Origin: Rhodovarius crocodyli
Lineage (GTDB): Bacteria; Pseudomonadota; Alphaproteobacteria; Acetobacterales; Acetobacteraceae
Assembly (NCBI RefSeq): GCF_004005855.1
Contig: NZ_SACL01000005.1
Span: 62,001-126,000, forward strand
DNA length: 64,000 nucleotides
Direction of reading: 5' to 3'
In this document: positions 1-21,100 of the stretch, piece after piece
Layout of the letters: each line of letters begins with the position of its first letter
Numbering within the stretch: the stretch's first letter is position 1
The notes under the pieces: model-generated
What the model saw: only the letters and a program-made list of their open reading frames with translations
Databases searched by the model: none
Told to the model about the DNA's origin: nothing
Translations under genes and position numbers: made by a program

Positions 1-81
1 GCCTTCCGGCAGTTCCTCCAGCGCCAGGGGCACGCGGTCGTCGGCGGGGATCTCCCGCCCGGCGATGTCAATGAGCGCCAT
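1..81 (-). CDS. DUF934 family protein, N-terminal fragment
   Basis: Only the first 27 codons lie in the window; the gene runs off the left edge. The peptide begins MALIDIAGREIPADDRVP, which resembles the start of DUF934 proteins. In many alphaproteobacteria DUF934 sits directly after the sulfite reductase gene and before cysH, and it is thought to assist assimilatory sulfate reduction, though its biochemical role is not settled. Its ATG lies inside the last codons of the upstream sulfite reductase gene (14-bp overlap), which implies translational coupling in one operon. The call rests on a short fragment plus context. Confidence 0.7.
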   Translation of the reverse strand, partial: MALIDIAGREIPADDRVPLALEELPEG

Positions 82-2050
82 AGACCGCCTCCTTGAAGGG
101 TGCCGCGCCCAGGCGGCGATAGGTATCGATGAAGCGTTCGCCCTCCGTGCGGCGGGCGACATAGGCATCCACGATCTTCCCGATGGCGTCGGGCACGTCC
201 TCGCTCGGCACGGCGGGGCCGATGATGCCGCCGATCGCCGCCTGCTCGTCCGACGCGCCGCCGAGGGTGATCTGGTAGACCTCCTCGCCGTTCCGGTTCA
301 CGCCCAGCAGGCCGATATGGCCGATATGATGCTGGCCGCAGGCGTTGATGCAGCCCGAGATATTCAGGTCGAGCGGCCCGATCTCGGCCTCCCGCGCGGC
401 GAAACGCTCGCTCAGCCGCTGGGCGACCGGGATGGCGCGCGCCGTGGCCAGCGCGCAGTAGTCCATGCCTGGGCAGGCGATGATGTTGGTCACCAGCCCC
501 GCATTGGCATCGGCCAGCCCCGCCTTGCGCAGCGCGGCATAGAGCACGGGCAGCGCCTCCTTCTCCACATGCGGCAGGATCAGGTTCTGCTCGTGGCTGA
601 CGCGCAGCTCACCGAAGGAATACTGCTCCGACAGGCCGGCGATCAGTTCCATCTCCTCGGCGGTGGCGTCGCCGGGGATGCCGCCCGCGGGCTTCAGCGT
701 GACGGTGGCCGAGATGTAGCCCGGCACGCGATGCGGGTGGGTGTTGCGGGCCACCCAGTCGGAGAAGCCCGGCAGCTGGGCCAGCGCGGCGTCGAAGGCG
801 GGTGCTGCCTCGGGCAGCGCCTGGAAGGGGGGCTCCTCGAAACGCGCGCCGACGGCGGCGAGCAGATCGTCGGTCAGCAGGGCGTAATCGGCCGGCAGGG
901 CCGCGAACTCGGCCTCCACCATGCGGCGGAATTCCTCGGCGCCCGTCTCGCGGATCAGGATCTTGATGCGGGCCTTGTAGATGTTGTCCCGCCGGCCGAG
1001 CGCGTTGTAGACGCGCAGCACCGCCTCGACATAGCGCAGCAGGTCCTGCGCCGGCAGCCAGTCCCGCAGCTTGGTCGCGATGATGGGGGTGCGGCCCAGA
1101 CCGCCGCCGGCATGCAGCTCGAAGCCCACCTCGCCCGCCGGGTTGCGGCGCGCGATCAGCCCGATGTCATGCACGCGGATGGCGGCGCGGTCCTGCTCGC
1201 TGCCCGTGATGGCGATCTTGAATTTACGCGGCAGGTACGTGAATTCGGGATGGTCGGTCGAATACTGCCGCAGGATCTCGGCATAAAGGCGCGGGTCCAC
1301 CACCTCATCGGCGGCGGCGCCGGCATATTGGTCGGTGGTGACGTTGCGCACGCAGTTGCCGCTGGTCTGGATGCCGTGGATATCGGCCTCGGCCAGCAGG
1401 CGCAGGATCTCGGGCGTGTCCGTCAAACGGGGCCAGTTGAACTGGATGTTCTGCCGCGTGGTGAAGTGGCCGTAGCCCCGGTCATAATGCCGCGCGATAT
1501 AGGCCATCTGCCGCAGCTGGGTGGATGACAGCACGCCATAGGGGATGGCGACCCGCAGCATGTAGCCGTGCAGCTGCAGATATAGGCCGTTCATCAGCCG
1601 CAGCGGCTTGAACTCCTCCTCGTTCAGTTCGCCCTTCAGGCGGCGTTCCACCTGATTGCCGAACTGGGCCGCGCGCTGGCGCAGGAATTCGCGGTCGGCC
1701 TCGTCATAGCGGTAGATGCCGGCATGGGGCGAGCTGTGGCTGCGGCTGGGCGGCGGCGGGAAAGGCCCTTCGGCCCAGTCATGCCCCTTCCGCAGCAGGT
1801 CGCCGCGCACAGAGGGGCCCTGGGCGCGCAGGCGCTCCCGGTACTCGGCGGGCACGCCGTCCTCGATCTCGACGCCGCGGATATCGACGGCCAATTGCTG
1901 GTCGTCGCGACGGACGCGCGCCAACAGGCCGTCCAGCGCCTCGCCTTCCAGCAGGGCTGCCTCAGCGCGATCGGTGGTCCAGCCGCGCTGGCCGTCGTGC
2001 CAGACGACGACGCCGTCGGTCAGGCGATTGGCGGTGATGGTGCTGCCCAT
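68..2050 (-). CDS. cysI: DUF2849-sulfite/nitrite reductase hemoprotein fusion
   Basis: Predicted 660 aa, about 100 residues longer than usual ferredoxin/NADPH-type sulfite reductases. Residues 1 to about 95 (ITANRLTDGVVVW near the start, RERLRAQGPSVR later) match the small DUF2849 protein that is normally a separate gene upstream of cysI. A Pro/Ser-rich linker follows. The hemoprotein then starts near GIYRYDEADREF and holds two ferredoxin-like halves. The siroheme/[4Fe-4S] ligands are Cys526 and Cys532 (CPGMDYC) and Cys567 and Cys571 (CINAC). The expected reaction is six-electron reduction of sulfite to sulfide in the cytoplasm; nitrite is the alternative, but DUF934 next door favours sulfite. 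The ATG at 2050 was chosen over two upstream ATGs because GGAGG lies 5 nt before it. Confidence 0.92.
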   Translation of the reverse strand: MGSTITANRLTDGVVVWHDGQRGWTTDRAEAALLEGEALDGLLARVRRDDQQLAVDIRGVEIEDGVPAEYRERLRAQGPSVRGDLLRKGHDWAEGPFPPPPSRSHSSPHAGIYRYDEADREFLRQRAAQFGNQVERRLKGELNEEEFKPLRLMNGLYLQLHGYMLRVAIPYGVLSSTQLRQMAYIARHYDRGYGHFTTRQNIQFNWPRLTDTPEILRLLAEADIHGIQTSGNCVRNVTTDQYAGAAADEVVDPRLYAEILRQYSTDHPEFTYLPRKFKIAITGSEQDRAAIRVHDIGLIARRNPAGEVGFELHAGGGLGRTPIIATKLRDWLPAQDLLRYVEAVLRVYNALGRRDNIYKARIKILIRETGAEEFRRMVEAEFAALPADYALLTDDLLAAVGARFEEPPFQALPEAAPAFDAALAQLPGFSDWVARNTHPHRVPGYISATVTLKPAGGIPGDATAEEMELIAGLSEQYSFGELRVSHEQNLILPHVEKEALPVLYAALRKAGLADANAGLVTNIIACPGMDYCALATARAIPVAQRLSERFAAREAEIGPLDLNISGCINACGQHHIGHIGLLGVNRNGEEVYQITLGGASDEQAAIGGIIGPAVPSEDVPDAIGKIVDAYVARRTEGERFIDTYRRLGAAPFKEAVYGAH

Positions 2051-2188
2051 GGGCGCCTCCGGCATACAGACCCGGATACGCAATATTTTCCGTTGGAAAA
2101 TCGCATTATCCAGGTGTTTTTTGCCATTTAGAGGTTGGCCGCGCCCAACGCAACATCGGCGGCCGCAATTTTCGCATTCAGAATCGTA
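2051..2188 (-). promoter_or_regulatory. AT-rich upstream region of the sulfite reductase operon
   Basis: This spacer is clearly richer in A+T than the flanking genes. It holds a perfect inverted repeat, ATTTTCC-GTT-GGAAAAT (2085-2101), about 35 bp upstream of the chosen cysI start. There are also two similar stretches, CGCATTATC near 2104 and CGTATTATC near 2185. Dyads of this kind are typical LysR-type binding sites, so this is a plausible operator for sulfur control. No clear -35/-10 pair could be fixed. Which regulator binds is not shown; the LysR gene just upstream is a candidate. Confidence 0.4.
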
Positions 2189-3139
2189 TTATCGCTGATC
2201 CAACCAGGGAAACATGCTCCATGCCCTTTCCCGCGCCTGGGCATTGGCTGCCCGCAATGCCTCGATGAACTGGCCGGCGTGGCGGGACCCCGCCCGGCTG
2301 GCCAGCCGCATGATGGCGGGCGATGTGCGCAGCACCGGGGACTGGAAGCGCAGCACCTCCACCTGCGCGCCCGGTTCCTCCAGCGCGGGCGCGGTGACGA
2401 AGGCCACCGCGTCGCTGCGCCTGACCACGGACAGCCAGGCACTCATCGGCTCCAGCATCATGGCGGGAAAGGCCGGGTGGGGGCGGCGCGCCCGGGCCTC
2501 GGCGCGTGCCTCCGTCAGCATCCGGCTGAAATTGGCCGACAGGTTCGCGGTGGTCACCAGCGGATAGGCCAGGATCTGCGACAGCTCGGGCCGCTTCAGC
2601 CGCAGCAGCGGGTGGCCGGCGCGCACGGCCGCCAGCATGGGGTGGGCGGGCAGCGGCTCGATCGACAGGCCCGCCAGGTCCACCACGCTGGTGGTATTGG
2701 CCAGCGCAATCTCGACCAGCCCCGCGCGGAGCTGCGCCACCGCCCGCGGCCAGGGCTGGATCTCCATGCGCAGCCGGATGCGCGGCTGCTCCCGGCCGAA
2801 GGCGATGGCCGCCGGCAGCAGGATGGTCTCGAAGGGATAAGGGCCTGAGGCCACAGCGATTTCCTGCCCCGGGCCGCTGCGCAGCTCCGACAGGTTCCGC
2901 TGCAGGGCTTCCATGCGCTCCAGTATGGATGGGGCATCGGCCAGGATCATGCGGCACATGTCGGTGGGCTCGGCGCCCTGGCGGCTGCGCAGGAACAGCG
3001 GGCCGCGCAGCATGGCCTCGACGGCCGAAATACTGCGCGTCAGCGCGGGTTGGGTGACCCCCAGCACCCGCGCGGCGCGGGTGAAGTTGCCGTGGGTGGC
3101 GATGGCCTGGATGCGCTGCAGGTCACGGATGTCGAGCAT
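2189..3139 (-). CDS. LysR-family transcriptional regulator
   Basis: The 316-aa protein has the normal LysR length. The winged HTH is at the N-terminus (MLDIRDLQRIQAIATHGNFT, then AARVLGVTQPALTRSISAVE), followed by a substrate-binding domain from about residue 90. It lies upstream of the sulfite reductase fusion on the same strand, 138 bp away, and is divergent from the Bug receptor at 3244. LysR proteins usually control the divergent neighbour, so the receptor/hydrolase pair is the first candidate target and the cys operon the second. The effector is unknown. Confidence 0.85.
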   Translation of the reverse strand: MLDIRDLQRIQAIATHGNFTRAARVLGVTQPALTRSISAVEAMLRGPLFLRSRQGAEPTDMCRMILADAPSILERMEALQRNLSELRSGPGQEIAVASGPYPFETILLPAAIAFGREQPRIRLRMEIQPWPRAVAQLRAGLVEIALANTTSVVDLAGLSIEPLPAHPMLAAVRAGHPLLRLKRPELSQILAYPLVTTANLSANFSRMLTEARAEARARRPHPAFPAMMLEPMSAWLSVVRRSDAVAFVTAPALEEPGAQVEVLRFQSPVLRTSPAIMRLASRAGSRHAGQFIEALRAANAQARERAWSMFPWLDQR

Positions 3140-3191
3140 GGCGCGCAGCCTAGCATGCAGAATGGTTATGGATCTTCACCGGATAGGGCAT

Positions 3192-3207
3192 TGGCGGAAA
3201 TCCGCCA
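3192..3207. promoter_or_regulatory. Inverted repeat in the LysR/receptor divergent promoter
   Basis: A perfect dyad, TGGCGGA-AA-TCCGCCA, lies in the 104-bp divergent gap, 37 bp before the receptor start. Its position and symmetry fit an operator for the adjacent LysR regulator. It is shorter than a typical LysR footprint, so it may be only the recognition half. Confidence 0.4.
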
Positions 3208-3243
3208 TTCCCGGCAAGCCGGATGCAGCCCCAGGAGCATCCG

Positions 3244-4209
3244 ATGACCGCCACCCGCCGCCTGCTGCTCGCAAGCCCCGCCATCCTCGCCATGCCGGCG
3301 CGCGCGCAGGGCTTTCCCGACCGCCCCATCCGCATCAACGTGCCCTACCCGCCCGGCGGCGGCAGCGACGCCGTGCTGCGCGGCCTGACCGAGAGCATGC
3401 GGGAGACGCTGGGCCAGCCCATCGTCATCGACAACAAGCCCGGCGCCGGCGGCAATCTGGGCGCGGAACAGGTCGCGCGCGCCCCCAAGGACGGCTACAC
3501 GCTGCTGTTCACGGCGGGCGCGCTGGCCATCGCGCCCTCGGTCAACCGGGCGCTCAGCTTCGACCCGCGCAAGGATCTCGCGGGGGTGGCGCTGGCCGCC
3601 TATGTGCCGCTGATCCTGGTGGTGGCGCCGAACAGCCCGATCCGCTCGGTGGCGGACATCATCGCCCTGGCCCGCCAGCGGCAGGACGGCGTGACCTATG
3701 GCAGCTTCGGCATCGCCACGCCGCCGCACCTGGTGGGTGAGCGCATCAACCAGCATGCGGGCCTGTCCATGACCCATGTGCCCTATCGCGGCAGCAGCAC
3801 CGCCCTGCCGGACCTGCTGGACGGCCGGCTGACCTTCGGCATCTTCGATGCCGTCAGCATGACGCCGCAGGTGACGTCGGGGCGCTTGCGGGCGCTGGCC
3901 ATCACCGGCCCCCGCCGCAGCGAGGCCCTGCCCGACCTGCCCACCCTGACCGAGGCCGGCGTGCCCTTCGACACGGTGGGCTGGCACGCGGCCTTCGCCC
4001 CGGCCGGCACGCCCGCGCCCATCATCGCGCGGCTGAACGCGGCCTTCGTGAAGGCGCTGGAGGAACCGCGCGCAAAGCGGATGATCCTGGGCGGGGGCTC
4101 CATGCCCATCGAGCCCCCGCTGTCGCCCGCCGAATGGGACGCGCATTTCGCCCGCGACGTCGAAAGCTGGGGCGCCATCGCCCGCGCCGCCCATATCACC
4201 CTGGATTGA
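3244..4209 (+). CDS. Bug/TctC-family solute-binding protein
   Basis: This is a periplasmic receptor of the tripartite tricarboxylate transporter type. The N-terminus (MTATRRLLLASPAILA, ending ARAQ) is a signal peptide with a twin-arginine-like pair. The mature part shows the family hallmarks FPDRPIRINVPYPPGGGSD, ENKPGAGG-like IDNKPGAGGNLG, and GYTLL. No TctA or TctB membrane subunit is nearby, so it is an orphan. The ATG at 3244 was chosen because AGGAG lies 6 nt upstream; an earlier in-frame ATG at 3223 lacks one. The hydrolase gene starts 5 bp after its stop, suggesting a shared transcript and a ligand that the hydrolase processes. Confidence 0.88.
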   Translation: MTATRRLLLASPAILAMPARAQGFPDRPIRINVPYPPGGGSDAVLRGLTESMRETLGQPIVIDNKPGAGGNLGAEQVARAPKDGYTLLFTAGALAIAPSVNRALSFDPRKDLAGVALAAYVPLILVVAPNSPIRSVADIIALARQRQDGVTYGSFGIATPPHLVGERINQHAGLSMTHVPYRGSSTALPDLLDGRLTFGIFDAVSMTPQVTSGRLRALAITGPRRSEALPDLPTLTEAGVPFDTVGWHAAFAPAGTPAPIIARLNAAFVKALEEPRAKRMILGGGSMPIEPPLSPAEWDAHFARDVESWGAIARAAHITLD

Positions 4210-4214
4210 TCGCC

Positions 4215-5399
4215 ATGCGCATCGAAGCCGACATCCCCTTCGCCGAGGTCGCCGTCGCGGCCGGCACCCGCACCCTGATGATGGACGCCTATCTGCCGGA
4301 AGGCCCCGGGCCGCATCCCGCGCTGGTGCTGGCCTTCGGCGGGGCCTATCACCGCGGCAGCCGCAAGGATGACGTGTTCGCCGGCGCCCGCGGCAGCAAC
4401 ACGGCCATGGCCGAATACGCCCGGCGCTTTGCCGCGCGCGGCTATGCCTGCTTCTCCATCGATTATCGCCTGGCCGCCGACGACGCCCCCGCCGGCCCCA
4501 CCCCGGTGCTGACCGTCCCCGGTGAGATCGGGGTGCAGCGGATGGATGTGGTGCGGCAGATGCTGGGCATGCCGCCGGCCTCCCATGCCGACCACATGCG
4601 CATCATCGAGGGCGCGATCGACGACATGGCCGCCGCCGGCCGCTTCGTGGCCCGGCAGGCGGCGCGCTTCGGCATCGACCCCGACCGCATCGTGCTGGGC
4701 GGCTGGTCGGCCGGGGCGCGGGCCGCCCTTTACGCGGCCCTGGCCGAGGGCGTGCCCTGCGCGGGCGTCATCGCCCTCTCGGCCCGGATGGAGAGCGGCG
4801 ACCTGGCGGCGCATCTGCCCCGCTTGGCCTGCCCGCCGCCCGTGCTGCTGATCACGGCGCAGGATGACCTGGGCACCCTGCCCGCCGAGACGCCCGGCAT
4901 GGCCGCCGCCCTGCGCCACCATGGCGGAGAGGCCCTGCACGTCACCATCCCGGGCTGGGACCACTGGTACCCGGCCGAGGCCGTGACCGATGCGGGAACG
5001 AGCGTCGAGGCGACCATGGCGGAGGCGCTGGAACGCTGGACCCGCAGCGGAGAGGCGCTGCTGGAGGATTTCGCCGCCGCCTACAACCGCCACGACATCG
5101 AGGCCCTGCTGGGCATGGTGACCGAGGACTGCGTGTTCGAGACCGCCTTCGGCACCCGCCACCAGGGCAAGGCCGAGCTGCGTGAGGCCCTGCCCGGCGC
5201 CTGGCGGCAATGGCCCGACGCACGCTGGGACGGCGCGCAGCACGTCGTCAACGGCGACCGGGGCTTCAGCGAATGGGTGCTGCGCGGCACGGATGCGGCC
5301 GGCACTCGCACCGAGTTGCGCGGCGTGGACCTGTTCCGGCTGCGGCACGGGCTGATCGCGCGCAAGGATACGTTTCGGAAGCCGTATGCCGTGCCATAG
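4215..5399 (+). CDS. Alpha/beta hydrolase fused to an NTF2/SnoaL-like domain
   Basis: Predicted 394 aa. Residues 1 to about 275 form an alpha/beta hydrolase of the esterase/carboxylesterase type: an oxyanion-type strand LVLAFGGAYHRGS, the nucleophile elbow GGWSAGAR (Ser about residue 160), an acid region near AQDDLG and a histidine in PGWDHWYP. From about residue 280 a second domain begins (LLEDFAAAYNRHDIEALLGM), the classic start of a SnoaL/NTF2-like cone fold. The N-terminus shows no signal peptide, so a cytoplasmic location is likely. It follows the Bug receptor by 5 bp. The substrate is unknown; the fusion itself is less common than either domain alone. Confidence 0.8.
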   Translation: MRIEADIPFAEVAVAAGTRTLMMDAYLPEGPGPHPALVLAFGGAYHRGSRKDDVFAGARGSNTAMAEYARRFAARGYACFSIDYRLAADDAPAGPTPVLTVPGEIGVQRMDVVRQMLGMPPASHADHMRIIEGAIDDMAAAGRFVARQAARFGIDPDRIVLGGWSAGARAALYAALAEGVPCAGVIALSARMESGDLAAHLPRLACPPPVLLITAQDDLGTLPAETPGMAAALRHHGGEALHVTIPGWDHWYPAEAVTDAGTSVEATMAEALERWTRSGEALLEDFAAAYNRHDIEALLGMVTEDCVFETAFGTRHQGKAELREALPGAWRQWPDARWDGAQHVVNGDRGFSEWVLRGTDAAGTRTELRGVDLFRLRHGLIARKDTFRKPYAVP

Positions 5400-5435
5400 A
5401 AATGCACGATTCCGGCCCAGTTCCGGCCACGTGAT

Positions 5436-5464
5436 TTGCGCATGAATAATCGTCCATGTAATTT
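5436..5464 (+). promoter_or_regulatory. Candidate sigma70-type promoter of the small secreted protein
   Basis: TTGCGC (5436-5441) and TAATTT (5459-5464) are separated by 17 bp, inside a locally AT-rich stretch. They lie 19 bp before a strong AAGGAGG ribosome site. The match is reasonable for an alphaproteobacterial housekeeping promoter but rests on pattern alone. Confidence 0.35.
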
Positions 5465-5482
5465 CCCCCGAAGGAGGACGTC

Positions 5483-5779
5483 ATGCGCAGAATCATCATC
5501 GCCGCGGCCTTGGCCCTAGGGCTCGTGACTGGCCTGGCGCCCCTCGCCGGAGCCCAGGCCCTGACGGTCACGCCCCCGGCGTCCGGCTCGGGCGTGGAGG
5601 CCACCCAGGTCCAGTATTACTACCCGCCGCCGCGCCCTTATTACCGGCCGCCGCCGCCGCCGCGCTGGCACCATTACCACCGGCCTGCCTGGCACCACCC
5701 GCGCCCGTATTATCGCCCGCCCCCGCCGCCCCGGCACTGGGGCCATCACCATCACCACGGGCGCCGCCACTGGCGGTAA
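5483..5779 (+). CDS. Small secreted Pro/His/Tyr-rich protein
   Basis: The 98-aa product starts with a clear Sec signal peptide (MRRIIIAAALALGLVTGLAP, cleavage probably after AGA-Q). The mature ~73 residues are almost all low complexity: repeated YYPPPRPYYRPPPPP-type blocks alternating with His-rich runs, including HHHHH near the end. AAGGAGG precedes the ATG, so it should be translated well. Many proteobacteria encode such Pro/His-rich exported peptides, with no agreed function. Histidine clusters suggest metal binding and Tyr/Pro repeats suggest an extended, wall-associated or cross-linkable chain; both are inference. It is a stand-alone gene with its own apparent promoter. Confidence 0.75.
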   Translation: MRRIIIAAALALGLVTGLAPLAGAQALTVTPPASGSGVEATQVQYYYPPPRPYYRPPPPPRWHHYHRPAWHHPRPYYRPPPPPRHWGHHHHHGRRHWR

Positions 5780-5882
5780 TGCGTTCGTGGGATGAACTCA
5801 GCCTGACTTCCCCGTAATCTCTGGACGTTGCGACCCGCTTCCCCCAAAGATGGGCGCAACGACAGAGCATCCGGGGAACGTC

Positions 5883-6290
5883 ATGCTGCAGCATTATTTC
5901 GCGACCCTGCCGGTTTTCCTGACCTGGTTTCCCCTCGGCATCCTGATGCTGGCGGCCTTTGCCGCCGCCTATGAGCGCATCACGCCCTGGCGCGAGCTCA
6001 TCCTGATCCGCAACGGCAATATCGCCGCCTCGGCCAGCTATTCCGGCGCGCTGCTCGGCTATGCGCTGGTGCTGGCGGCGGTGATGAGCGCGGCGCAGAG
6101 TCGGGCCGACCTGCTGCTGTGGGCGCTGGTCGGCTTCGTGGTGCAGTTGCTGGCCTTCGGCGTGGCACGGCTGCTGCTGGGCGCGGGGCTGAAGGCGCGC
6201 ATGGAGGCCGGCTGCGGCGCCACCGGCCTGTTCCTGGGCGCCGTCTCGGTCTGCGCCGGGCTGATCAACGCCGCGACCATGCTGGGCTGA
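5883..6290 (+). CDS. DUF350 (YjfL-like) inner-membrane protein
   Basis: Predicted about 135 aa with four hydrophobic segments (near FLTWFPLGILMLAAF, SGALLGYALVLAAV, LLLWALVGFVVQLLA, and the C-terminal LFLGAVSVCAGLINA). The charge and spacing pattern fits DUF350, the family of E. coli YjfL. It is followed by DUF1190 and a glutathionylspermidine-synthase-like gene in the same order as yjfL-yjfM-yjfC. The ATG at 5883 is taken because the hydrophobic part starts just after it; an upstream start at 5850 would add 11 polar residues. A dyad CGTTGCG...CGCAACG (5826-5832/5855-5861) precedes it and may be regulatory. Confidence 0.8.
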   Translation: MLQHYFATLPVFLTWFPLGILMLAAFAAAYERITPWRELILIRNGNIAASASYSGALLGYALVLAAVMSAAQSRADLLLWALVGFVVQLLAFGVARLLLGAGLKARMEAGCGATGLFLGAVSVCAGLINAATMLG

Positions 6291-6302
6291 GGAGGTATCG
6301 CC

Positions 6303-6956
6303 ATGCGCCGCTCTACCGCCGTCACCATCACGCTGCTGTCCACCGCGGCCATCGCGCTGGTCTGGTGCGGGGATGGACCGACCCCACCCGAGGGCGACAC
6401 GCTGTTCACCTCGGAGGACGCCTGCCGGGCCAGCTTCGGCTCCGACGACACCGCGGCCTGCCGAGACGCCTTCGCCGATGCGCGCCAGCGGCATGAGGCC
6501 ACGGCCCCGCGCTTCACCGAACGCGCGATCTGTGAGAACCAGACCGGCGGCGAATGCACCACCGTCAGCCAGCCCAACGGCACCTCGCTGTTCATCCCCG
6601 TCATGGCGGGCGTGCTGATCGGGCGCGTGCTGGCCAGCGGCGGGCCGCGCAGCGTCATGCCGCTCTATGCCGGGGCGCAGGCCAATTGCCCGCCCGGCAT
6701 CCAGCCCCTGCCGCCGGGCTGCGCGGCACCGCGCCCGACCTCCTCATCCACCAGCGGGGGGCGGGGCTTCTACTACAGCGGCAGCAGCTACATGGGCGAC
6801 AGCGACCGCACGGGTGCGACCCGCAGCTTCAACGCCAGCACCACCGGCAGCACCGTGCTGGCGCGCGGCGGCAGCTACAGCGGCTCCAGCAGCATCGCGC
6901 GCGGCGGGCTGGGCAGCACCGGCCGCGGCTTCTCCAGCAGCAGCAGCAGCAGCTGA
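6303..6956 (+). CDS. DUF1190 (YjfM/YgiB-like) exported protein
   Basis: The 217-aa product has an N-terminal hydrophobic segment (TAVTITLLSTAAIALVWCG) with a Cys near its end, as in lipoproteins, although the lipobox is not canonical. The next part has the DUF1190 pattern: DTLFTSEDACRASFG, then paired cysteines (CRDAF, ICENQTGGEC) and AQANCPPGIQPLPPGC. The C-terminal third is Ser/Gly-rich and ends in polyserine encoded by six AGC triplets (6936-6953). It lies between DUF350 and the ATP-grasp gene, 12 bp after the former and overlapping the latter's spacing by one base. It is probably periplasmic or membrane-anchored. The trio is associated with envelope stress functions elsewhere, but this role is inferred. 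Confidence 0.78.
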   Translation: MRRSTAVTITLLSTAAIALVWCGDGPTPPEGDTLFTSEDACRASFGSDDTAACRDAFADARQRHEATAPRFTERAICENQTGGECTTVSQPNGTSLFIPVMAGVLIGRVLASGGPRSVMPLYAGAQANCPPGIQPLPPGCAAPRPTSSSTSGGRGFYYSGSSYMGDSDRTGATRSFNASTTGSTVLARGGSYSGSSSIARGGLGSTGRGFSSSSSSS

Positions 6957-6957
6957 G

Positions 6958-8124
6958 ATGCAGCGGCACGAGATCCCTCCCCGCGCCGACTGGCAGCGGC
7001 GCATCGAGGCCGTGGGCCTGGCCTATCACTCCGATGGCCAGGAACCCGGCCCCGGCGGCGGGCTGTTCTGGCATGAGGGTGCCTATTGGTCGCTGTCCGA
7101 GGCCGAGGTGGATGCGCTGGACGACGCCACGGCCGAGTTGCACGCCCGCTGCCTGGATGCCGTGGACCACCTGGTGAACCGGGAACCCGAGGCGCTGACC
7201 CGCGACTTCGCCCTGCCCGACTGGTTCGCGGCAGCCCTTTCCGAGAGCTGGCGGCGCGGCGACCCCGCATTGATGGGGCGGATGGACCTGGCCTTCGACG
7301 ACCGCACCGGCGCGATCGCCCTGCTGGAATACAACGCCGACACGCCGACGCTCGCGATCGAGACGGCGGTGGCCCAGTGGTACTGGCTGCAGGACGCCTT
7401 CCCGGACGCCGACCAGTTCAATTCCCTGCACGAGAAGCTGCTGGCGCGCTTCCAGTGGCTGGGCCGGCTGATGAACGGCCAGCCCCTGCATTTCGCGGCC
7501 TATCCGGACCTGCCGGAGGAATGGCTGCACAGCACCTATTATCGGGACCTGGCGGAGCAGGCGGGCATCCGCGCCATTCCCATCGCGCTCGAATCCGTGG
7601 GCTTCGACGGTGAGGGGTTCCGGGGGGAGGAAGGTGAGGAGATCCGCTTCCTCCATAAGCTGTACCCATGGGAATGGGCCATCAAGGACGAGTTCGGCCG
7701 GCAATTGGCGGGTGACAGGACCGGCGTGCTGGAACCGCCCTGGAAGGCGCTGCTGTCGGACAAGGCGATCCTGCCGGTGCTGCACAAGCTGTTCCCCCAG
7801 CACCCGAACATCCTGCCCGCCTTCATGGGCCGGCTGGGCGACCGCCCCGGCGCCTGGGTGGAGAAGCCCTGCCTGGGCCGCGAGGGCGCGAATATCCGCC
7901 TCAGCCGCGACGGCTTCACTGAGGAACAGACCGATGGCGAGTACGGCGGCGCCGATGCCCGCTTCATCACCCAGGCCCGCGCCGTGATCCCGGAGAAGAA
8001 CGGCTGGCATGCCGTGATCGGCAGCTGGGTGGTGGGGGAGGAGACCGGCGGCATCATCTTCCGCGAGGCGCGGGAGCGGGTGATGCGCGAAACCTCCCGC
8101 GTGGTGCCGCACCTGTTCCGTTGA
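6958..8124 (+). CDS. Glutathionylspermidine synthase-like ATP-grasp protein (YjfC-like)
   Basis: Predicted 388 aa, the normal length for YgiC/YjfC proteins. These correspond to the synthetase (C-terminal) domain of E. coli Gss and lack the amidase domain. Visible family motifs are FDDRTGAIALLEYNADTPT, the ATP-grasp lysine region AWVEKPCLGREGANI, and the final GWHAVIGSWVVG. It would be a cytosolic ATP-dependent amide ligase; YgiC/YjfC homologues do not necessarily make glutathionylspermidine, and the true substrate is open. The ATG at 6958 lies 1 base after the DUF1190 stop, so translation is coupled. The cytosolic ligase, a membrane DUF350 and an exported DUF1190 together suggest one modification system acting at the envelope. 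Confidence 0.85.
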   Translation: MQRHEIPPRADWQRRIEAVGLAYHSDGQEPGPGGGLFWHEGAYWSLSEAEVDALDDATAELHARCLDAVDHLVNREPEALTRDFALPDWFAAALSESWRRGDPALMGRMDLAFDDRTGAIALLEYNADTPTLAIETAVAQWYWLQDAFPDADQFNSLHEKLLARFQWLGRLMNGQPLHFAAYPDLPEEWLHSTYYRDLAEQAGIRAIPIALESVGFDGEGFRGEEGEEIRFLHKLYPWEWAIKDEFGRQLAGDRTGVLEPPWKALLSDKAILPVLHKLFPQHPNILPAFMGRLGDRPGAWVEKPCLGREGANIRLSRDGFTEEQTDGEYGGADARFITQARAVIPEKNGWHAVIGSWVVGEETGGIIFREARERVMRETSRVVPHLFR

Positions 8125-8248
8125 TCCACAGCGTTGGCGCCTGCCCGGCCTTCACGCGGCGCGGCGGGGCTGTTAGCTAGTCTCAGGGGCCTGCCATGCC
8201 GAATCCACGGCAAGGCGGGTCGTTTCTATCCTTGGGGGCCCTCGTCAG

Positions 8249-9376
8249 ATGAAGATCGCTGTGGATCGCGCCATCCTTCTGAAGGCCCTGGCGCATGTGC
8301 AATCGGTGGTGGAACGCCGCAACACCATCCCCATCCTGGCCAATGTGCTGCTGGATGCGAAGGATGGCGGGTTGAGCCTGACGGCCACCGACATGGAAAT
8401 CGCCGTCGTCGAGGAAGTCTCGGGCGTGACCGTGACGCGCCCGGGCCGCACCACCGCCCCGGCCGCGACGCTCTATGAAATCGTCCGCAAGCTGCCGGAA
8501 TCCGCCAAGATCGAGCTGGACCATCCGGGCGGCGAGGCGCCGCTGGTGCTGCGCGCCGGCCGCTTCGTGACCAACATGCTGGCCCTGCCGGTGGAGGACT
8601 TCCCCTCCATGACCGAGGGCAAGCTGCCGGTGCGCTTCGCCCTGCCGGCCGGCACGCTGCGCGGGCTGATCGACCGCACGAAGTTCGCGATCTCCACCGA
8701 GGAGACGCGCTACTACCTCAACGGCATCTACATCCATGTGGCCGAGATCGAGGGCACCCCGGTGCTGCGCGCCGCCGCCACGGACGGCCACCGCCTGGCC
8801 CGCGTCGAGGAACCGGCCCCCGAGGGTTCGGCCGGCATGCAGGGCGTGATCATCCCCCGCAAGACGGTGAATGAGCTGCGCAAGCTGGCCGAGGAAACCC
8901 AGGAAGACGTCGAGATCCGCCTCTCCGAGACCAAGGCGCAGTTCAAGGTGGGCGGCGTGCTGCTGACCTCCAAGCTGATCGACGGCACCTTCCCGGATTA
9001 CGAGCGGGTGATCCCGCGCGCGAACGACAAGATCCTGCGCGTGGACAAGAAGGAATTCGCCGAGGCGGTGGCCCGCGTGGCCGCCATCAGCAGCGAGCGT
9101 TCGCGCCCGGTGAAGCTCTCGGTGGACCGCAACCACCTGCGGCTGGAAGCCAGCAGCGCCGACCAGGGCCAGGCCCAGGAGGAGCTGGACGAGGGCAATG
9201 TGGAATACGCCTTCACCCCGCTCGAGATCGGCTTCCAGGCGCGGTACCTCGCCGACATCACCGAGCAGATCGGCGAGAAGGTGGAGTTCCAGTTCGCCGA
9301 TGGCTCCTCGCCGACCGTCGTGAAGGACGCGGCGAAGCCCGAGGCGCTGTATGTGCTGATGCCGATGCGGGTGTAA
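8249..9376 (+). CDS. dnaN: DNA polymerase III beta subunit (sliding clamp)
   Basis: The 375-aa protein has the expected length and three-repeat clamp architecture. It starts MKIAVDRAILLKALAHVQSV, with TIPILANVLLDA shortly after, contains TDGHRLA in the second domain, and ends in YVLMPMRV, the canonical clamp C-terminus. It encircles DNA and tethers polymerase III and other enzymes. It starts the dnaN-recF-gyrB block. dnaA is not directly upstream; the ATP-grasp gene is. The 124-bp leader has a TGATCCACA at 8122-8130 with one mismatch to a DnaA box, but a single site is not evidence for an origin. Confidence 0.98.
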   Translation: MKIAVDRAILLKALAHVQSVVERRNTIPILANVLLDAKDGGLSLTATDMEIAVVEEVSGVTVTRPGRTTAPAATLYEIVRKLPESAKIELDHPGGEAPLVLRAGRFVTNMLALPVEDFPSMTEGKLPVRFALPAGTLRGLIDRTKFAISTEETRYYLNGIYIHVAEIEGTPVLRAAATDGHRLARVEEPAPEGSAGMQGVIIPRKTVNELRKLAEETQEDVEIRLSETKAQFKVGGVLLTSKLIDGTFPDYERVIPRANDKILRVDKKEFAEAVARVAAISSERSRPVKLSVDRNHLRLEASSADQGQAQEELDEGNVEYAFTPLEIGFQARYLADITEQIGEKVEFQFADGSSPTVVKDAAKPEALYVLMPMRV

Positions 9377-9378
9377 GC

Positions 9379-9536
9379 GGGGCCGAAAGGCCCCTGGCCC
9401 CCAGGAGTTTGGCTCCCCACCCTGGGAAGGCGTAATTATATTCCTATCTGTCCCACCAGGATGAGCACCAACAGAAGGCAGCTCCGGGAGACACTGTCTC
9501 CTGACGGGCTCCAAGGGCAGAGCCCTTGGTGGGGGT
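9379..9536. repeat. Modular intergenic element, copy A (dnaN-recF)
   Basis: This copy starts 3 bp after dnaN with GGGGCC-GAAA-GGCCCC (9379-9394), a stable GNRA-looped hairpin that may end the dnaN message. It continues with CCCCAGGAGTTTGGC and an AT-rich core around 9432-9450. On the right are GGAGAC/GTCTCC (9487-9501) and CCAAGGGC-AGA-GCCCTTGG (9511-9529). The right half carries the same AGA-looped middle hairpin found in the other copies, and the left half is more degenerate. Its right end overlaps the possible recF start codons (TTG 9526, GTG 9529), so it could affect recF translation. Confidence 0.65.
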
Positions 9537-10677
9537 TAACCTGACCCCCGCGCTTCGCCTCACCCGCATCATGCTGACGGATTTCCGCTCCTACGAGGCA
9601 GCGGAGCTGTCCACACCCGCGCCCATGGTGGTGCTGACCGGCCCCAACGGCGCCGGCAAGACCAACCTGCTGGAGGCGCTGTCCCTCCTTGGCCCCGGGC
9701 GTGGCCTGCGCAACGCGAAGGTGGCGGAGCTGGCCCGCACCGGCACCCCGCGCTGGGCCGTGGCAGGGCGTTTCACCGGCGCCTGGGGCGATTTCGAGAT
9801 CGGCACCGGCACCGCGCCCGACGCACCGGAGCGCCGGGTGTTCCGCCTCGACGGCGCCCCCGCCCGCAGCCAGGCTGAATTGTCCGAGCGCGTGGCCGCC
9901 GTCTGGCTGACGCCCCAGATGGACCGGCTGTTCCAGGAGGCCGCCTCCGGCCGCCGGCGCTTCCTGGACCGGCTGGTCTATGCGCTGGACCCCGCCCATG
10001 CGCGGGAGGTCGCGGCCTATGAGAACGCCATGGCCCAGCGCAACCGCCTGCTGGCCGAGGGCGGCGCCCCCGACTGGCTGACCGCGCTGGAGGACGCGAT
10101 GGCCCGCCATGGCGTGGCCGCCGCCGCCGCCCGCCGGGCGCTGGTCAGCCGGCTGGATGCCACCTTGGCGGCAGGCGCGCTGGGGGGCTTCCCCTCGGCC
10201 ACGCTGGCCCTGTCCTGCGCCACCACCCAGGCCCTGGCGGATCGCCCGGCCCTGGAGGTGGAGGACAGCCTGCGCCGCGCCCTGCGCGATGCCCGCCCGC
10301 GCGACCGCGGCGCCGGTGCCGCCGTCGAGGGCCCGCACCGCGCCGATCTGCGCCTGGAACACCGGGAAAAGGGCGTGCCGGCGGCCCTGTGCTCGACGGG
10401 TGAGCAGAAGGCGCTGCTGGTCTCCACCGTGCTGGCCCATGCCGGGCTGATCGCGGATGCGCGGGGCTTCGCGCCCCTGCTGCTGCTGGATGAGGTGGCG
10501 GCCCATTTCGACAATGCCCGGCGCGATGCGCTGTTCCAGGCGCTGTCCACCCTGCCCGCCCAGGCCTGGCTGACCGGCACGGAGGCCGAGCTGTTCGCGG
10601 GGCTGAAGGGGACCGCCCAGGGCTTTCTGGCAAGTCACGGGGGCTTGCGGGAAAATCCCGAATTGCCCCTGCCCTGA
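9529..10677 (+). CDS. recF: DNA replication and repair protein RecF
   Basis: This is an SMC-like ATPase that loads RecA at gaps. Near the N-terminus it has LTRIMLTDFRSYEAAEL and the Walker A GPNGAGKTNLLEALS. The signature and Walker B regions are STGEQKALL and LLLLDEVAAHFD. Length (about 382 aa) is normal. The start is uncertain: no ATG lies before the conserved region, ATG 9571 would remove the first strand, and the credible choices are TTG 9526 or GTG 9529. All of these lie inside or next to the hairpin of repeat copy A, and none has a clear ribosome site. gyrB follows after 66 bp. Confidence 0.95.
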   Translation: MGVNLTPALRLTRIMLTDFRSYEAAELSTPAPMVVLTGPNGAGKTNLLEALSLLGPGRGLRNAKVAELARTGTPRWAVAGRFTGAWGDFEIGTGTAPDAPERRVFRLDGAPARSQAELSERVAAVWLTPQMDRLFQEAASGRRRFLDRLVYALDPAHAREVAAYENAMAQRNRLLAEGGAPDWLTALEDAMARHGVAAAAARRALVSRLDATLAAGALGGFPSATLALSCATTQALADRPALEVEDSLRRALRDARPRDRGAGAAVEGPHRADLRLEHREKGVPAALCSTGEQKALLVSTVLAHAGLIADARGFAPLLLLDEVAAHFDNARRDALFQALSTLPAQAWLTGTEAELFAGLKGTAQGFLASHGGLRENPELPLP

Positions 10678-10719
10678 CCGGCGGATTTCTGCTATAAACC
10701 GGGCGTTTTTGCGGCCTGA

Positions 10720-13170
<2,451 letters not shown>

Positions 13171-13215
13171 GTAGCCGTGGTGTGATTGCGCCGCGCCACG
13201 TCCCGGGCTAGCCCG

Positions 13216-14757
13216 GTGCCTGTGCAGAATCCCCTCATCCGCCTGAAGGCCCAGCTCCTCCACGGGGCCAGCCGCCCCCTGCCCGCCGTGATCGGGCTGG
13301 GGGCCCTCTCGGCGCTGGCGCTGCCGCCCCTGCATGCGGTGCCCATCCTGCTGGTGGTGTTTCCGGCCCTGCTGTCGCTGCTGGGCGGCGCGGGCAGCTG
13401 GCGCCGCGCGGCGGTGCTGGGCTTCGCCTTCGCCTGGGGGCATCACGCGGTCGGTCTGTACTGGGTCACCCACGCCATGTTCGCGGATATCGCGAAATGG
13501 TGGTGGCTGGTGCCCTTCGCGGCGCCGGGCCTGGCGCTGCCCGTGGCGCTCACCGGGGCGCTGGTGGGTGCGGTGGCCTGGATGACGCCGCCCGGATGGC
13601 GCCGCGTCTTCGCCTTCGCCGGCACTTGGGTGATCGCGGAGATCATCCGCGGCTATCTGTTCACCGGCTTTCCCTGGAACCTGCTGGGCACGGTCTGGGC
13701 CTTCCATCCGCTGCCGCTGCAGCCGGCCGCCGTGATCGGCACGCATGGGCTGTCGCTGCTGACGGTGCTGCTGGCCTGCCTGCCCGCGCTGCGGGACTGG
13801 CGCTGGATGGGCGCGGGTGCCGCGGTGCTGGCCTGCTGGATGGGCTATGGCGCGTGGCGGCTGGCCCAGCCCTCCCCGCCCGATACCGACACCATGCTGG
13901 TGCTGGTGCAGGCCAATGTCGCCCAGGACGTGAAGTGGCGGCAGGACCAGCGCATGCCGATCTTCCAGCGCTATCTGGACCTGACGGCGCTGGCCGCCCA
14001 TGCCGCGCGGGCCGGGCATCCCGATGCCCCGATCGCCGTCATCTGGCCCGAGACCGCGAGCCCCTTCCTGCTGTCCGAGGACGCGCAGGCCCGCCAGTTC
14101 GTGGCGCAGGCCCTGCCCGCCAACAGCCAGCTGCTGGCCGGCAGCATCCGCGCGCAATGGAACCCGGCCGGCGAGCTGGACCGCGTCTACAACGCGCTGG
14201 TCGGCGTGAACCCGGCCGGCGAGGTCACCGCCGTGTTTGACAAGCACCACCTGGTGCCCTTCGGCGAATACATGCCGCTGGACGGGCTGATCCCGATCCG
14301 GATGGTCACGGGCGGGCGCGACTTCACGCCGGGCCCGGGCCTGCGCAGCATCGCGCCGGGGGGCCTGCCGCCCTTCAGCCCGCTGATCTGCTACGAGGTC
14401 ATCTTCCCCGGCCAAGTGGTGGGCGAGACCCGGCCGGCCTGGCTGCTGAACATCACCAATGATGCGTGGTTTGGTTACTCGGCCGGACCGTTCCAGCATC
14501 TGGCCAGCAGCAGGCTGCGCGCGGTGGAGGAAGGCCTGCCCATGGTGCGGGCCGCGCAGACTGGTATCTCAGCGGTTTTCGACTCGGCGGGTCGGGAATT
14601 GCGCCGGCTGGCGCTGGGCACAACCGGTACGCTGGCCGGCTGGCTCCCGGGGGCTGCAACCCCCACCGTGTTCAGCCGTTGGGGCTTATTGATTCCATGC
14701 CTTTTGTCGCTAATTTGCGTTCTGGCAGCACGGCCTGAGCCCAGACGGAAAGCGTAA
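13216..14757 (+). CDS. lnt: Apolipoprotein N-acyltransferase
   Basis: This inner-membrane enzyme transfers the third acyl chain to the N-terminal Cys of lipoproteins. The first ~200 residues contain about six hydrophobic segments, and a nitrilase-like periplasmic domain follows (VLVQANVAQDVKW onward). The catalytic triad is visible: Glu in IWPETASPF, Lys in FDKHHLVPFGEY and Cys in LICYEVIFP. A last C-terminal hydrophobic segment (LLIPCLLSLICVLAA) completes the topology. The start is uncertain between GTG 13216, GTG 13222 and TTG 13186; the GTG at 13216 is a compromise. In alphaproteobacteria lnt often precedes an XRE regulator, as here. Confidence 0.93.
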   Translation: MPVQNPLIRLKAQLLHGASRPLPAVIGLGALSALALPPLHAVPILLVVFPALLSLLGGAGSWRRAAVLGFAFAWGHHAVGLYWVTHAMFADIAKWWWLVPFAAPGLALPVALTGALVGAVAWMTPPGWRRVFAFAGTWVIAEIIRGYLFTGFPWNLLGTVWAFHPLPLQPAAVIGTHGLSLLTVLLACLPALRDWRWMGAGAAVLACWMGYGAWRLAQPSPPDTDTMLVLVQANVAQDVKWRQDQRMPIFQRYLDLTALAAHAARAGHPDAPIAVIWPETASPFLLSEDAQARQFVAQALPANSQLLAGSIRAQWNPAGELDRVYNALVGVNPAGEVTAVFDKHHLVPFGEYMPLDGLIPIRMVTGGRDFTPGPGLRSIAPGGLPPFSPLICYEVIFPGQVVGETRPAWLLNITNDAWFGYSAGPFQHLASSRLRAVEEGLPMVRAAQTGISAVFDSAGRELRRLALGTTGTLAGWLPGAATPTVFSRWGLLIPCLLSLICVLAARPEPRRKA

Positions 14758-14940
14758 CGAAAATTCGGAAATGGGTCTATTTTTGAGACTTCTTGAAAAT
14801 ATTGACCAACTCTTTCCAAGCCGTTAATAACTTGGCCTCAAGCAGGATGCTGGGTCCAAGCCTGCAGAAAGCGGCGCGTGTGGCGCCACGTCACGGCACC
14901 GTCTTGATGGGGGTGGCAACAGGCCACGATACGGAAGCGG

Positions 14941-15402
14941 ATGAAACAGGCGATGCCCAGTGAGGACATGCTAGACCGAGGTGACAAGGAGCACCGGCCT
15001 AGCCCCATCGACGTTCATGTGGGGGCGCGTGTGCGCCTCCGCCGCACGTTGCTGGGGATGAGCCAGGAGCGACTCGGTGAGGCATTGGGCCTTACTTTTC
15101 AACAGGTTCAGAAGTACGAGCGCGGTGTGAACCGCATCGGTGCCTCGCGCCTGTTCGACCTGGCCCGGGTGCTGGACGTTCCGATCAGCTTCTTCTTCGA
15201 CGACATGCCCGATGCCATGGGCGGCAGCAGTGCCGTGACCCGCCGCATCGCCGGATTCGCCGAAAGCCAGGAAGGCTTCGAGGACGACACCCTGCATCGC
15301 CGGGAGACCCTGGAGCTCGTCCGCGCCTATTACCGGATCACCGATCCGTCTGTGCGCAAGCGCGTGTTCGACCTCATCAAGAGCCTGACGCCGGTCGATT
15401 GA
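14941..15402 (+). CDS. XRE-family HTH regulator, PraR-like
   Basis: The 153-aa protein has an N-terminal XRE helix-turn-helix (VGARVRLRRTLLGMSQERLG, then EALGLTFQQVQKYERGVNRI). It continues with ASRLFDLARVLDVPISFFFDD and a C-terminal tail conserved in alphaproteobacterial regulators of this kind. Such proteins, including PraR of rhizobia, repress surface, biofilm or symbiosis genes. The gene lies downstream of lnt after 183 bp of AT-richer DNA that likely holds its promoter. Three in-frame ATGs are possible (14941, 14953, 14968); the first is used since GGAAG lies just upstream. Large surface-glycan glycosyltransferases follow, convergently. Confidence 0.85.
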   Translation: MKQAMPSEDMLDRGDKEHRPSPIDVHVGARVRLRRTLLGMSQERLGEALGLTFQQVQKYERGVNRIGASRLFDLARVLDVPISFFFDDMPDAMGGSSAVTRRIAGFAESQEGFEDDTLHRRETLELVRAYYRITDPSVRKRVFDLIKSLTPVD

Positions 15403-15437
15403 GGCCGTCTGGCGCTCCGGCGCCGGTCAATTTGTCG

Positions 15438-18179: not shown

Positions 18180-21100
18180 GCCGGGCCTCCGCTGGTGCGG
18201 ATGGCGTCGATCCACCCGGCTTCGGGACCGCTGCGGGGCAGCAGGGGATCGGGCCTCGCCTCGGCGCCGATGGGTTCGGGCAGCGGCGGACGGGCGGCGA
18301 GCAGCGCCTCGGCCAGCGCCTCCCAGCCGGCACAGGCCTCCGCCACCGCTCCGGGCGAGGGCGCGGGCGGATTCTCCAGCGCGGCCTCGATCAGCCGCGC
18401 CAGCGCCACAGGTTCCAGCGGGTCGAAGGTCGTGGCCGGGAACGCGACACCCGCCGGGGCAAGGCAGGGCACCCCGGCCTCGGCGGCGGCGACCAGCAGC
18501 GCGGGCCATTGCCCGGCCTCCTCGGCCGAGAACGCCAGCAACGCGCGCGCCAGCAGCGGCTCCAGCGGCGCGGCCTCCGGCCAGTCGAGCGCGATGCAGC
18601 CCGGATATTCCCCCTCCAGCAGCGCCACAGGCGGGGCCTTGGGGCCCAGCAGGGCCAGCGCCTCCGCCAAGGGTGCGGAGAGGCGGCTGGCCAACAGGAA
18701 GCCGCCCTCGGGCGGAGAGGGATGCTCGCCCTCTTGCGGGAGGCGCCCCAGCGTCACCACCGGCAGGCAGGCCGCGGTCAGCACGCCGCGGCCGTCCCGC
18801 GCCAGCGCCGCCGCGAGATCCGGATCAGGGGCGGGCAACAGCAGGCCGTCGAAGGATGCGGGTTCGCTCAGCACGGCGCGGATCGCTTCCCGCTTCGCGG
18901 CCTCCACGCGATGCGGACGGGTGAAGGCCATCGGTTCGGCCAGCAGCAGCAGCGTCTCGGCCCCAGCCTCCCGCGCCTGGCGCCAGCCGCGCGGGGGCTG
19001 GGCGCGCGTGCCGGCATCCAGCACCAGCAGCCGGTCCCCGGCGGCGACCAGATAAGGCGAGCTGCGGGCCACCAGGGCGTCGCGCACGGCCAGGCGCTGC
19101 TCCAGCATGGGCGCGGCGAGGCCCGCCAGCGCCTCCGGCGGCAACAGCCAGATCTCATCCTGGCCCTCGGGGGTCAGCACGATGTCGAGCTCGGGCATCG
19201 GGCGCGCGGCCAGCACCCCCGCGAGGCCCTGGACCAGCCCCAGCCGCCAGCGCCGCGCGGCCCAGTTGCCGCGCGCTTCCAGCAGCGCGGTCACATCCAG
19301 CAGCAACCTGCCGCCCGCGCTGCGACGGGGCGCCTGCGCGGTGCCGAACCGCGCGAGCTCCGCCTGGTGATGCCTGCCGGCGCGGCGCAGCGCATTCACC
19401 CGCATCTCACGCGCAAAGGGGTCGCCCAGCGCCTCCGCCCGGTCATAGGCCTCCAGCGCCAGCAGCAACTCGCCCGCCATCGACAGGGCGTTGCCGTACT
19501 GCACCTGGATGCCGGCATCACGCGGGCACAGGCGCAGATAGTCCGCATAGAGCGCCGCGGCCTCGGGCCATTTCCCGGCATTGCGGCTGAGATTGGCCTG
19601 GCGGCGCAGGCGCCCGGCGCGCGTCAGCGTCGCGAAGATGCCGCGCGGCGGCTTGCGCCCCTGCGGCAGGGCGGGCAGCACCTGCGCCTCGCGCTCCGCC
19701 TGGGCGCCGGCCTGGTCGCCGGGCAGCAGCGTGATGTGGCGCAGGGCCAGGCACAGGCGGCGCTTGTCGCGGCCATGTTCCTCGGGCGGCTCATCCAGCC
19801 GCAGCAGCAGCAGCACCGTGCCGTCCTCGGCGACGGGACCCGTCACCCGCAGCAGCAGCCCGTCCGCGCCCTCCGCGTCCAGGCGGCGCCAGACCGGCTC
19901 TCCGCCCGCCAGCCGCGCCGTCAGCCCGTTGGGCGCCGGCCAGGGCGGCGTTCCCAACTCCAGCTCCAGAGAGACCACGCTGCCCGGCGCTTCCTGCGAG
20001 CGCGCGACGAATCGGGCGTGGCGGCCGCGCATCCAGGTGCAGCCCGCCTCGGCCGGATACCAGCCCGACTGGAGGGAGACCGCCTGCGACAGCGCGGCAC
20101 TGACCGCCGCCGCCCCGCCGCCGCCGGCCGCCATGGAAATGCCGGCGGCCACGCGCTCGCCTGTCGGCAGCAGCAGCGGCACGGCGCGGAACTCGACCTC
20201 ACGCGCGGGCTGGGCCATCAGCCGCCGCGTCTCGGTCAGGAAGTGGCGCGCGACCCCGGGCCATTGGCGGGGCACGAATTCGCGGGCGATGCGCGCCTCG
20301 GCCGCCGCCAGGGATGCGCGGTCATCCAGCCAGTGGCGCAGCGTCCCCACCCATTCCGGCACGCTGCCCGCATCGGCATAGGTCACGAGATCCCCGCCCA
20401 CTTCCGGCAGGGCGGAGGTGGGCGAGGCGATGCAGGGCCGCCCGAAGGACAGGCTCTCCCCCACCGCCAGGCCCCAGCCTTCCACGAAGCTCGGCATCAC
20501 GGTGAACAGGCAGGCGCGGTAGAGCGAGGCGAGCTCCACATCCGACAGGCCATGCACCACCATGATGCGGCCATCCAGGTTGCGGGTCGCCTCCAGCTGG
20601 CCCATCAGGTCGCCCACGCGCCAGCCGGGCCGGCCGACCAGCACCAGGATGGGCGGGTCACCGCCTTCCTCCAGCATGCGCTTCCAGGCGTGGAACAGCA
20701 GCAGGTGGTTCTTGCGGACCTCGATGGTCGAGACCGAGAGGACGAACTCCCGCCCCTTCACATCCAGCAGGGGCGCGGGCCAGGTATCCAGCCAGGCGGG
20801 GGTCTCGACCGGCTTCAGGCCGAAGCTGTGGGCCAGCGGAATGGCCACCGTCTCGATCGGCGGATAGCCGCGGGCGGCCACCAGCTGCCGGAAGGACTGC
20901 GCGGAATATTCCGAGATCGCGAGCGCGAAGTCCCAGAAGAACAGCGCCTCGTTCAGGGCCTGGTTGAAATAGAGGCTGGTGTCGCTGGTCGCGTATTCCG
21001 GGTGGGTCGCCGGGAAGGTGTCATAGATCAGCACGCCCAGCCGCAGGCCGCGCGCGCGCATGGCCATGTAGAAGCCGGGGGCGCCCGCGAAGAACCAGAA

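Follow-up and report, generated by a model that had tools for sequence, protein, structure and literature searches.

The locus described here raises the question of what a stand-alone ATP-grasp ligase, encoded together with a membrane protein and an exported protein in Rhodovarius crocodyli, uses as its substrate. Within the window, by which we mean the whole 64,000-nucleotide stretch of DNA that was analysed, three adjacent genes of the forward strand follow one another in the order DUF350, DUF1190, and GSP_synth ligase, as in the yjfLMC type. The first (5883..6290, ATG at 5883) encodes a 135-aa YjfL-like membrane protein (PF03994, E 8.1e-30), the second (6303..6956, ATG at 6303) a 217-aa YjfM/YgiB-like exported protein (PF06693, E 1.1e-21; 78.3 bits against a cut-off of 22), and the third (6958..8124, ATG at 6958) a 388-aa stand-alone ligase of the YgiC/YjfC type (PF03738, E 5.1e-114). 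The genes are separated by 12 nt (DUF350–DUF1190) and 1 nt (DUF1190–ligase), all three proteins score above the curated cut-offs in a Pfam scan, and each of the three families has one match in the window genome. Downstream of the trio are dnaN (8249), recF (9526), and gyrB (10744), and dnaA resides on a different contig, C22. The sequence-only reading of this DNA had described a trio beside dnaN that resembles E. coli yjfL-yjfM-yjfC and comprises a membrane, an exported, and a cytosolic member; the trio and its position are confirmed, the likeness is borne out by the three Pfam families in the E. coli order, and the threefold split is upheld. That interpretation is partly supported overall, and what it missed is that the DUF1190 partner ends in a conserved tail, the putative substrate of the ligase.

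The three proteins and their known relatives

The AlphaFold2 model of the DUF350 protein (mean pLDDT 94.9; helices 2–33, 38–43, 47–70, 74–99, 103–108, and 112–134) confidently predicts four long helices arranged as two similar halves, each with a short helix between its two long ones. Neither this model nor that of the DUF1190 protein (mean pLDDT 61.9) has a fold match in the PDB at E <= 0.001. The DUF1190 protein begins with an MRRS signal/anchor, a start found in 8/8 sequences of the clade alignment, and carries the atypical lipobox LVWC, compared with LVAC or MVSC in the proteins of genus relatives. The DUF1190 partner in L038 and L023 is without the lipobox Cys, and lipid anchoring is therefore not universal. 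One scan of viral contigs, bearing on a phage origin, found 72 stretches that fit a pattern, none of which encodes a relative.

The ligase matches PF03738 only, with no amidase half in the Pfam scan. Glutathionylspermidine synthetase/amidase (Gss) and trypanothione synthetase, enzymes that act on glutathione and also possess an amidase domain, have the ATP-grasp synthetase half and the catalytic residues in common with it. Residues R108, D110, E124, N126, K269, K303, R308, and R369 of the window ligase align with Gss R316, D318, E330, N332, K498, K533, R538, and R598, the catalytic residues of that enzyme, and Gss T441, T446, and D610, which likewise have roles in Gss, are replaced by L235, W240, and R381. 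Judged by this alignment, the ATP-grasp catalytic residues are intact. The closest PDB entries are E. coli YgiC (7uk8, E 1.8e-69) and YjfC (7uk6, E 1.9e-63), to which the ligase aligns over its full length (residues 1–387 and 1–386, respectively). The sequence-only reading held that the ligase substrate is not known, a statement that is outdated for E. coli; a 2023 paper is cited as reporting peptide–spermidine ligase activity for YgiC and YjfC, which gives a first indication of the substrate.

Two E. coli arrangements resemble the window trio. The yjfI-yjfJ-yjfK-yjfL-yjfM-yjfC operon, which the available text of PMC11237479 places in the CesT/Tir-PspA group, shares the order of DUF350, DUF1190, and stand-alone ligase with the window but also contains YjfI (DUF2170), PspA/YjfJ, and YjfK, for which the E. 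coli YjfI, YjfJ, and YjfK seeds gave no match in window positions 1–20000. PspA/YjfJ-like partners, for which a comparison of neighbourhoods had been proposed, are not needed here, with no PF04012 match in the window genome. In ygiB-ygiC, a DUF1190 gene with the tail directly precedes the ligase, as in the window, and YgiC is the closest solved structure; unlike the window, this pair has no adjacent DUF350 gene.

Position and conservation among relatives

The ligase is present in 5/9 genomes of the genus and 10/60 genomes of the family. The genus loci L019, L020, and L021 contain the trio in the same order, and L022 ends at a contig edge; among the eight loci closest to the window ligase, six have the trio in order, L039 is without DUF350, and L037 is cut by a contig edge. 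At L039 (Roseococcus pinisoli), DUF1190 and the ligase are kept at a locus from which DUF350 is absent. Elsewhere in the family the order differs: the tail gene or DUF1190 gene is followed by the ligase and DUF350 in L023–L028, the ligase is followed by DUF350 and DUF1190 in L029, and DUF350 was not detected at the L030 locus. The three genes are thus kept together in close relatives, contrary to what would have refuted the sequence-only reading, with the limits set by the ligase counts and the differing orders just given. At L031 (genome G048, contig C85), the ligase match lies in two pieces and is interrupted by a TGA, so that the copy has probably decayed.

The trio had also been suggested to occupy the place that dnaA often has in front of dnaN. 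In the same-genus genome G061, the dnaN of which is 95% identical to that of the window, the trio is absent between a 98-aa gene and dnaN, and the flanks are colinear with the window on both sides (82–89% DNA identity, 70% over the 98-aa gene). Nor was the trio seen in the stretches around dnaN, some of them truncated, of a further five genomes of the genus (G060, G063, G065, G066, and G067). In relatives the trio is carried elsewhere: its neighbours in L020 and L021 are other than dnaN, and in the Roseococcus/Rubritepida loci L035, L036, and L039 the set follows a third group of genes. Because the trio is missing from G061 and carried elsewhere in relatives, its position is regarded as incidental, and a meaning of the dnaN neighbourhood was rejected. 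The 3′ end of the ligase gene has a weak match of about 19 bp in G061, so that loss of the trio in G061 is as possible as its gain in the window.

Three further features of the window and its genome were observed. A segment of about 3.2 kb (2123–5392), with a LysR-type regulator, a TctC-like protein, and a hydrolase (all named by eye), is missing from the otherwise colinear G061. No Pfam match at E <= 0.01 was obtained for the 98-aa protein (5483–5779), which looks secreted, is Pro/His-rich, and keeps its place before dnaN in G061 (about 70% identity of the DNA). Contig C43 of the window genome encodes another DnaN-like protein (L131, 445610–446698), which shares 33% identity with the main one.

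The conserved C-terminal tail of the ligase partners

DUF1190 proteins diverge in their middles and are alike at their ends, and it was therefore asked how the gene before each ligase ends. The window tail, SSIARGGLGSTGRGFSSSSSSS (6888..6953, forward strand), is of a kind common to ligase-linked proteins of several phyla; it consists of ARGGLG followed by STGRGFSSSSSSS, matching a [RHK]xG[FLYM]G core with 3–35 residues after it, and is predicted to be disordered (pLDDT < 50 over residues 189–217 in AlphaFold2). The general form of the tail is [RH]xG[FL]G, mostly 7–12 further residues, and then mostly GG, SS, or GS.

Two samples were surveyed; in the tail counts of both, loci from related species do not amount to independent observations. 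Sample A comprises the best 80 loci by similarity to the window ligase (L033, L034, and L037 repeat genus contigs), which by their record titles, including MAG labels that may be wrong, belong to Bacteroidota, Actinomycetota, Verrucomicrobiota, Acidobacteriota, Gemmatimonadota, and Pseudomonadota, with one record labelled Schlesneria. An upstream tail gene is found in 75/80 of these loci (73 by the strict and 2 by the extended pattern); one locus (L105) is without a tail, and four are cut at contig edges (L037, L055, L068, and L076). Sample B consists of 398 Pseudomonadota genomes, 91 of which match PF03738, and 101 loci besides the window were examined, with L236 having no ligase by the profile used. 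A tail gene lies near 84/88 stand-alone ligases of this sample: upstream in 71 (61 strict, 10 extended), downstream in five (L190, L199, L201, L216, and L222), and in a separate unit 2–5 kb off in eight, six of which are PspA–ligase operons with DUF350–DUF1190 on the opposite strand and two of which are others. In these six (L166, L173, L180, L181, L183, and L186, with L267–L272), PspA is directly before the ligase and the DUF350–DUF1190 unit is 2.7–3.9 kb away. No tail gene was found near the remaining four stand-alone ligases (L206, L213, L221, and the fragment L235), and these loci have no DUF1190 match either.

Unlike the window ligase, bifunctional Gss has no tail gene upstream (0/12 loci of sample B within 1500 nt); one same-strand pattern match downstream of Gss in L224 was judged to be chance. 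Among 19152 background ORFs, which include some real tail genes that are not directly upstream, the strict pattern matched 67 and the extended pattern 293. Closer to the window, 11 of the 13 genus and family loci L019–L031 contain a tail gene, which is downstream in L029 and an AGFG variant in L030; the other two are L022, cut by a contig edge, and the split copy L031, which has no tail gene.

Both samples together with the window, YjfM, and YgiB yielded 149 tail ORFs (151 before the removal of chance matches in L199 and L221). These two were among 14 extended-only matches and were judged to be chance, the tail gene of L199 being downstream; the same verdict was reached for pattern matches in the surroundings of the tail-less ligases L221 and L235 (four in L283, one in L284). 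The last two residues of the 149 ORFs are GG in 78, SS in 34, GS in 21, and GE in 6; the last residue varies (G, S, E, A, or T) but is G or S in 139/149, compared with 19% of 951 other proteins. The core lies 7 to 26 residues from the C-terminus (7–12 in 106/149), the gap between tail gene and ligase is <= 20 nt in 121/149, and a loose pattern detects a lipobox-like N-terminus in 127/149. A sorting signal of the GlyGly-CTERM / PEP-CTERM type, of which a hydrophobic segment is a feature, was rejected, as no hydrophobic segment follows the core in the tails listed.

The distribution of DUF1190 itself bears on whether the tail goes with the ligase or with the protein that carries it. DUF1190 occurs in 63/398 Pseudomonadota genomes (68 matches), and 61 of the 63 also have a stand-alone ligase (Fisher p 2.5e-49, with genomes that are not independent). 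By coordinates, 56 of the 68 matches are within 400 nt of a ligase, six are at 2.7–3.9 kb, and six are unlinked: one each in G153 and G434, genomes without a PF03738 match, three in G253, and one in G447. The tail is absent from all six of these unlinked homologues, a small set of which four come from two genomes. In the protein of G153, a KKGGVGG stretch that is perhaps a relic lies about 30 residues from the C-terminus.

The bodies of the tail proteins were compared in groups, namely Bacteroidota (29), Actinomycetota (15), Verrucomicrobiota (7), Acidobacteriota (5), Betaproteobacteria (6), and the window with E. coli YjfM/YgiB, with L081 (uncultured bacterium) placed in Bacteroidota and L112 (titled Klebsiella pneumoniae) in Verrucomicrobiota. 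At E < 1e-3, trimmed bodies match only within groups, except that Betaproteobacteria match the window/E. coli set. Mean pairwise identity is higher in the RxGFG core than in the body in 5/5 groups (0.76–0.96 vs 0.41–0.72), and higher over the whole tail than in the body in 4/5, Acidobacteriota being the reverse (0.69 vs 0.72). Of ten tail proteins scanned, none reaches a cut-off of Pfam or NCBIfam; the idea that DUF4247 is the partner in Actinomadura was dropped, the one Actinomadura tail protein scanned having no Pfam match at E <= 0.1. These comparisons tie the tail to the ligase and not to the body of the protein. On the L112 contig, a MAG by its title, the tail protein and DUF350 are similar to their counterparts in Verrucomicrobiota loci, and the contig is probably mislabelled or misbinned.

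Proposed polyamine tailing and its alternatives

Polyamine genes accompany some of these loci. On contig C10 of the window genome, speD and speE domains lie about 270 bp apart. In betaproteobacterial L047, L063, L071, and L107, homologues of speD and speE sit immediately ahead of the tail gene on the same strand, and the ligase and DUF350 follow; the two matches share one reading frame in L063. In L062 speD/speE lie 4.7 kb upstream, and in L091 they match on the other strand. Overall, only a small share of the 80 sample A loci show speD/speE next to the ligase, and the flanks of sample B are too short for comparison.

We propose, with about as much reason to accept as to doubt it, that the trio is a polyamine-tailing module, in which the C-terminal carboxylate of the DUF1190 partner's tail receives a polyamine, most likely spermidine, through the action of the ligase. 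The cytosolic ATP-grasp ligase would recognise the disordered tail before export, convert its terminal carboxylate into an acyl phosphate, and join the activated tail to a primary amine, most likely that of spermidine; the product would be exported, in most cases lipid-anchored, and positively charged at its C-terminus, and DUF350 would be the inner-membrane partner. The sequences themselves show the linked trio, the tail together with its tie to the ligase, the intact catalytic residues, and speD/speE; from these we infer that the tail may be a substrate and not a docking site alone, that the amine may be spermidine, and that the modified protein may act at the envelope. The modification would probably be timed before export. 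Against the proposal stands that the partner is exported, so that tailing must precede or race that step. The variable spacing between core and C-terminus, the variable last residue, the five stand-alone ligases near which no tail gene was found (four in sample B, one in sample A), the small number of unlinked DUF1190 cases, and the scarcity of speD/speE beside the ligase in sample A also weigh against it. The chemistry has precedents in the cited activity of YgiC/YjfC and, according to the available text of PMC12270671, in the joining of spermidine to the C-terminal Gly-Gly carboxylate of SUMO, for which the mass shift is about +127.15 Da. In that SUMO/ubiquitin–spermidine conjugation, spermidine and ATP are likewise used on a C-terminal Gly-Gly carboxylate, but the chemistry is that of eukaryotic E1/E2 enzymes, whereas the window system would be a single ATP-grasp ligase with an exported protein.

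The main rival, which we consider unlikely, is that the tail merely docks or activates the ligase, the true products being free peptide–polyamine conjugates or another modified peptide. The citation of E. coli YgiC/YjfC as peptide–spermidine ligases would suit it, as would a conserved core that sits some residues short of the C-terminus, where a docking motif would be expected; a pure docking motif would not, however, need the small residues that extend to the very end (GG, SS, or GS in 133/149). The tail could also help to localise or assemble the protein, or bind DUF350 or the envelope, and be linked to the ligase through shared operon history alone; the exported look of the tail proteins and the frequency of DUF350 in the same set agree with this. 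We nevertheless rate it as improbable and the least likely of the three alternatives: the tail is absent from 6/6 DUF1190 homologues without a linked ligase, mutually unmatched bodies carry it beside ligases, and it persists both in E. coli ygiB-ygiC and, within the limits of profile sensitivity, without a nearby DUF350 match in 28/29 Bacteroidota-grouped loci. If the tail is the substrate, the amine might still be another polyamine, an aminopropylated amine, or an envelope amine. The accessible text of PMC11237479 notes that related operons contain AdoMet decarboxylase together with polyamine oxidase and raises the idea that other substrates are aminopropylated, and most sample A loci are without a speD/speE homologue; YgiC/YjfC are cited as spermidine users, though, and speE stands directly before the tail gene in the four betaproteobacterial loci. 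Another amine seems distinctly unlikely. 

The trio itself is of an already known type; what appears to be new is the C-terminus of DUF1190, the proteins united by the tail, and the putative protein substrate. Within open PMC papers, no tie between tail and ligase was found in the literature. An older survey of amidoligases could mention it. The available text of PMC11237479, which treats related operons with PspA and describes DUF1190 as a lipoprotein that chelates metal, makes no mention of the tail.

YgiB/YjfM and YgiC/YjfC are widespread, and both pairs occur in E. coli K-12. The tail offers a specific, testable putative protein substrate for ligases of the YgiC/YjfC kind. It unites many unnamed small proteins with DUF1190 and links envelope proteins with polyamine metabolism. 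Bacteria of at least six phyla may possess a dedicated system of protein C-terminal polyamine tailing, in which spermidine or a related amine is placed on the shared tail of a highly divergent exported protein, a prospect that we regard as evenly balanced. If true, it would explain the function of the trio genes and would be a bacterial counterpart of the recent C-terminal SUMO–spermidine conjugation.
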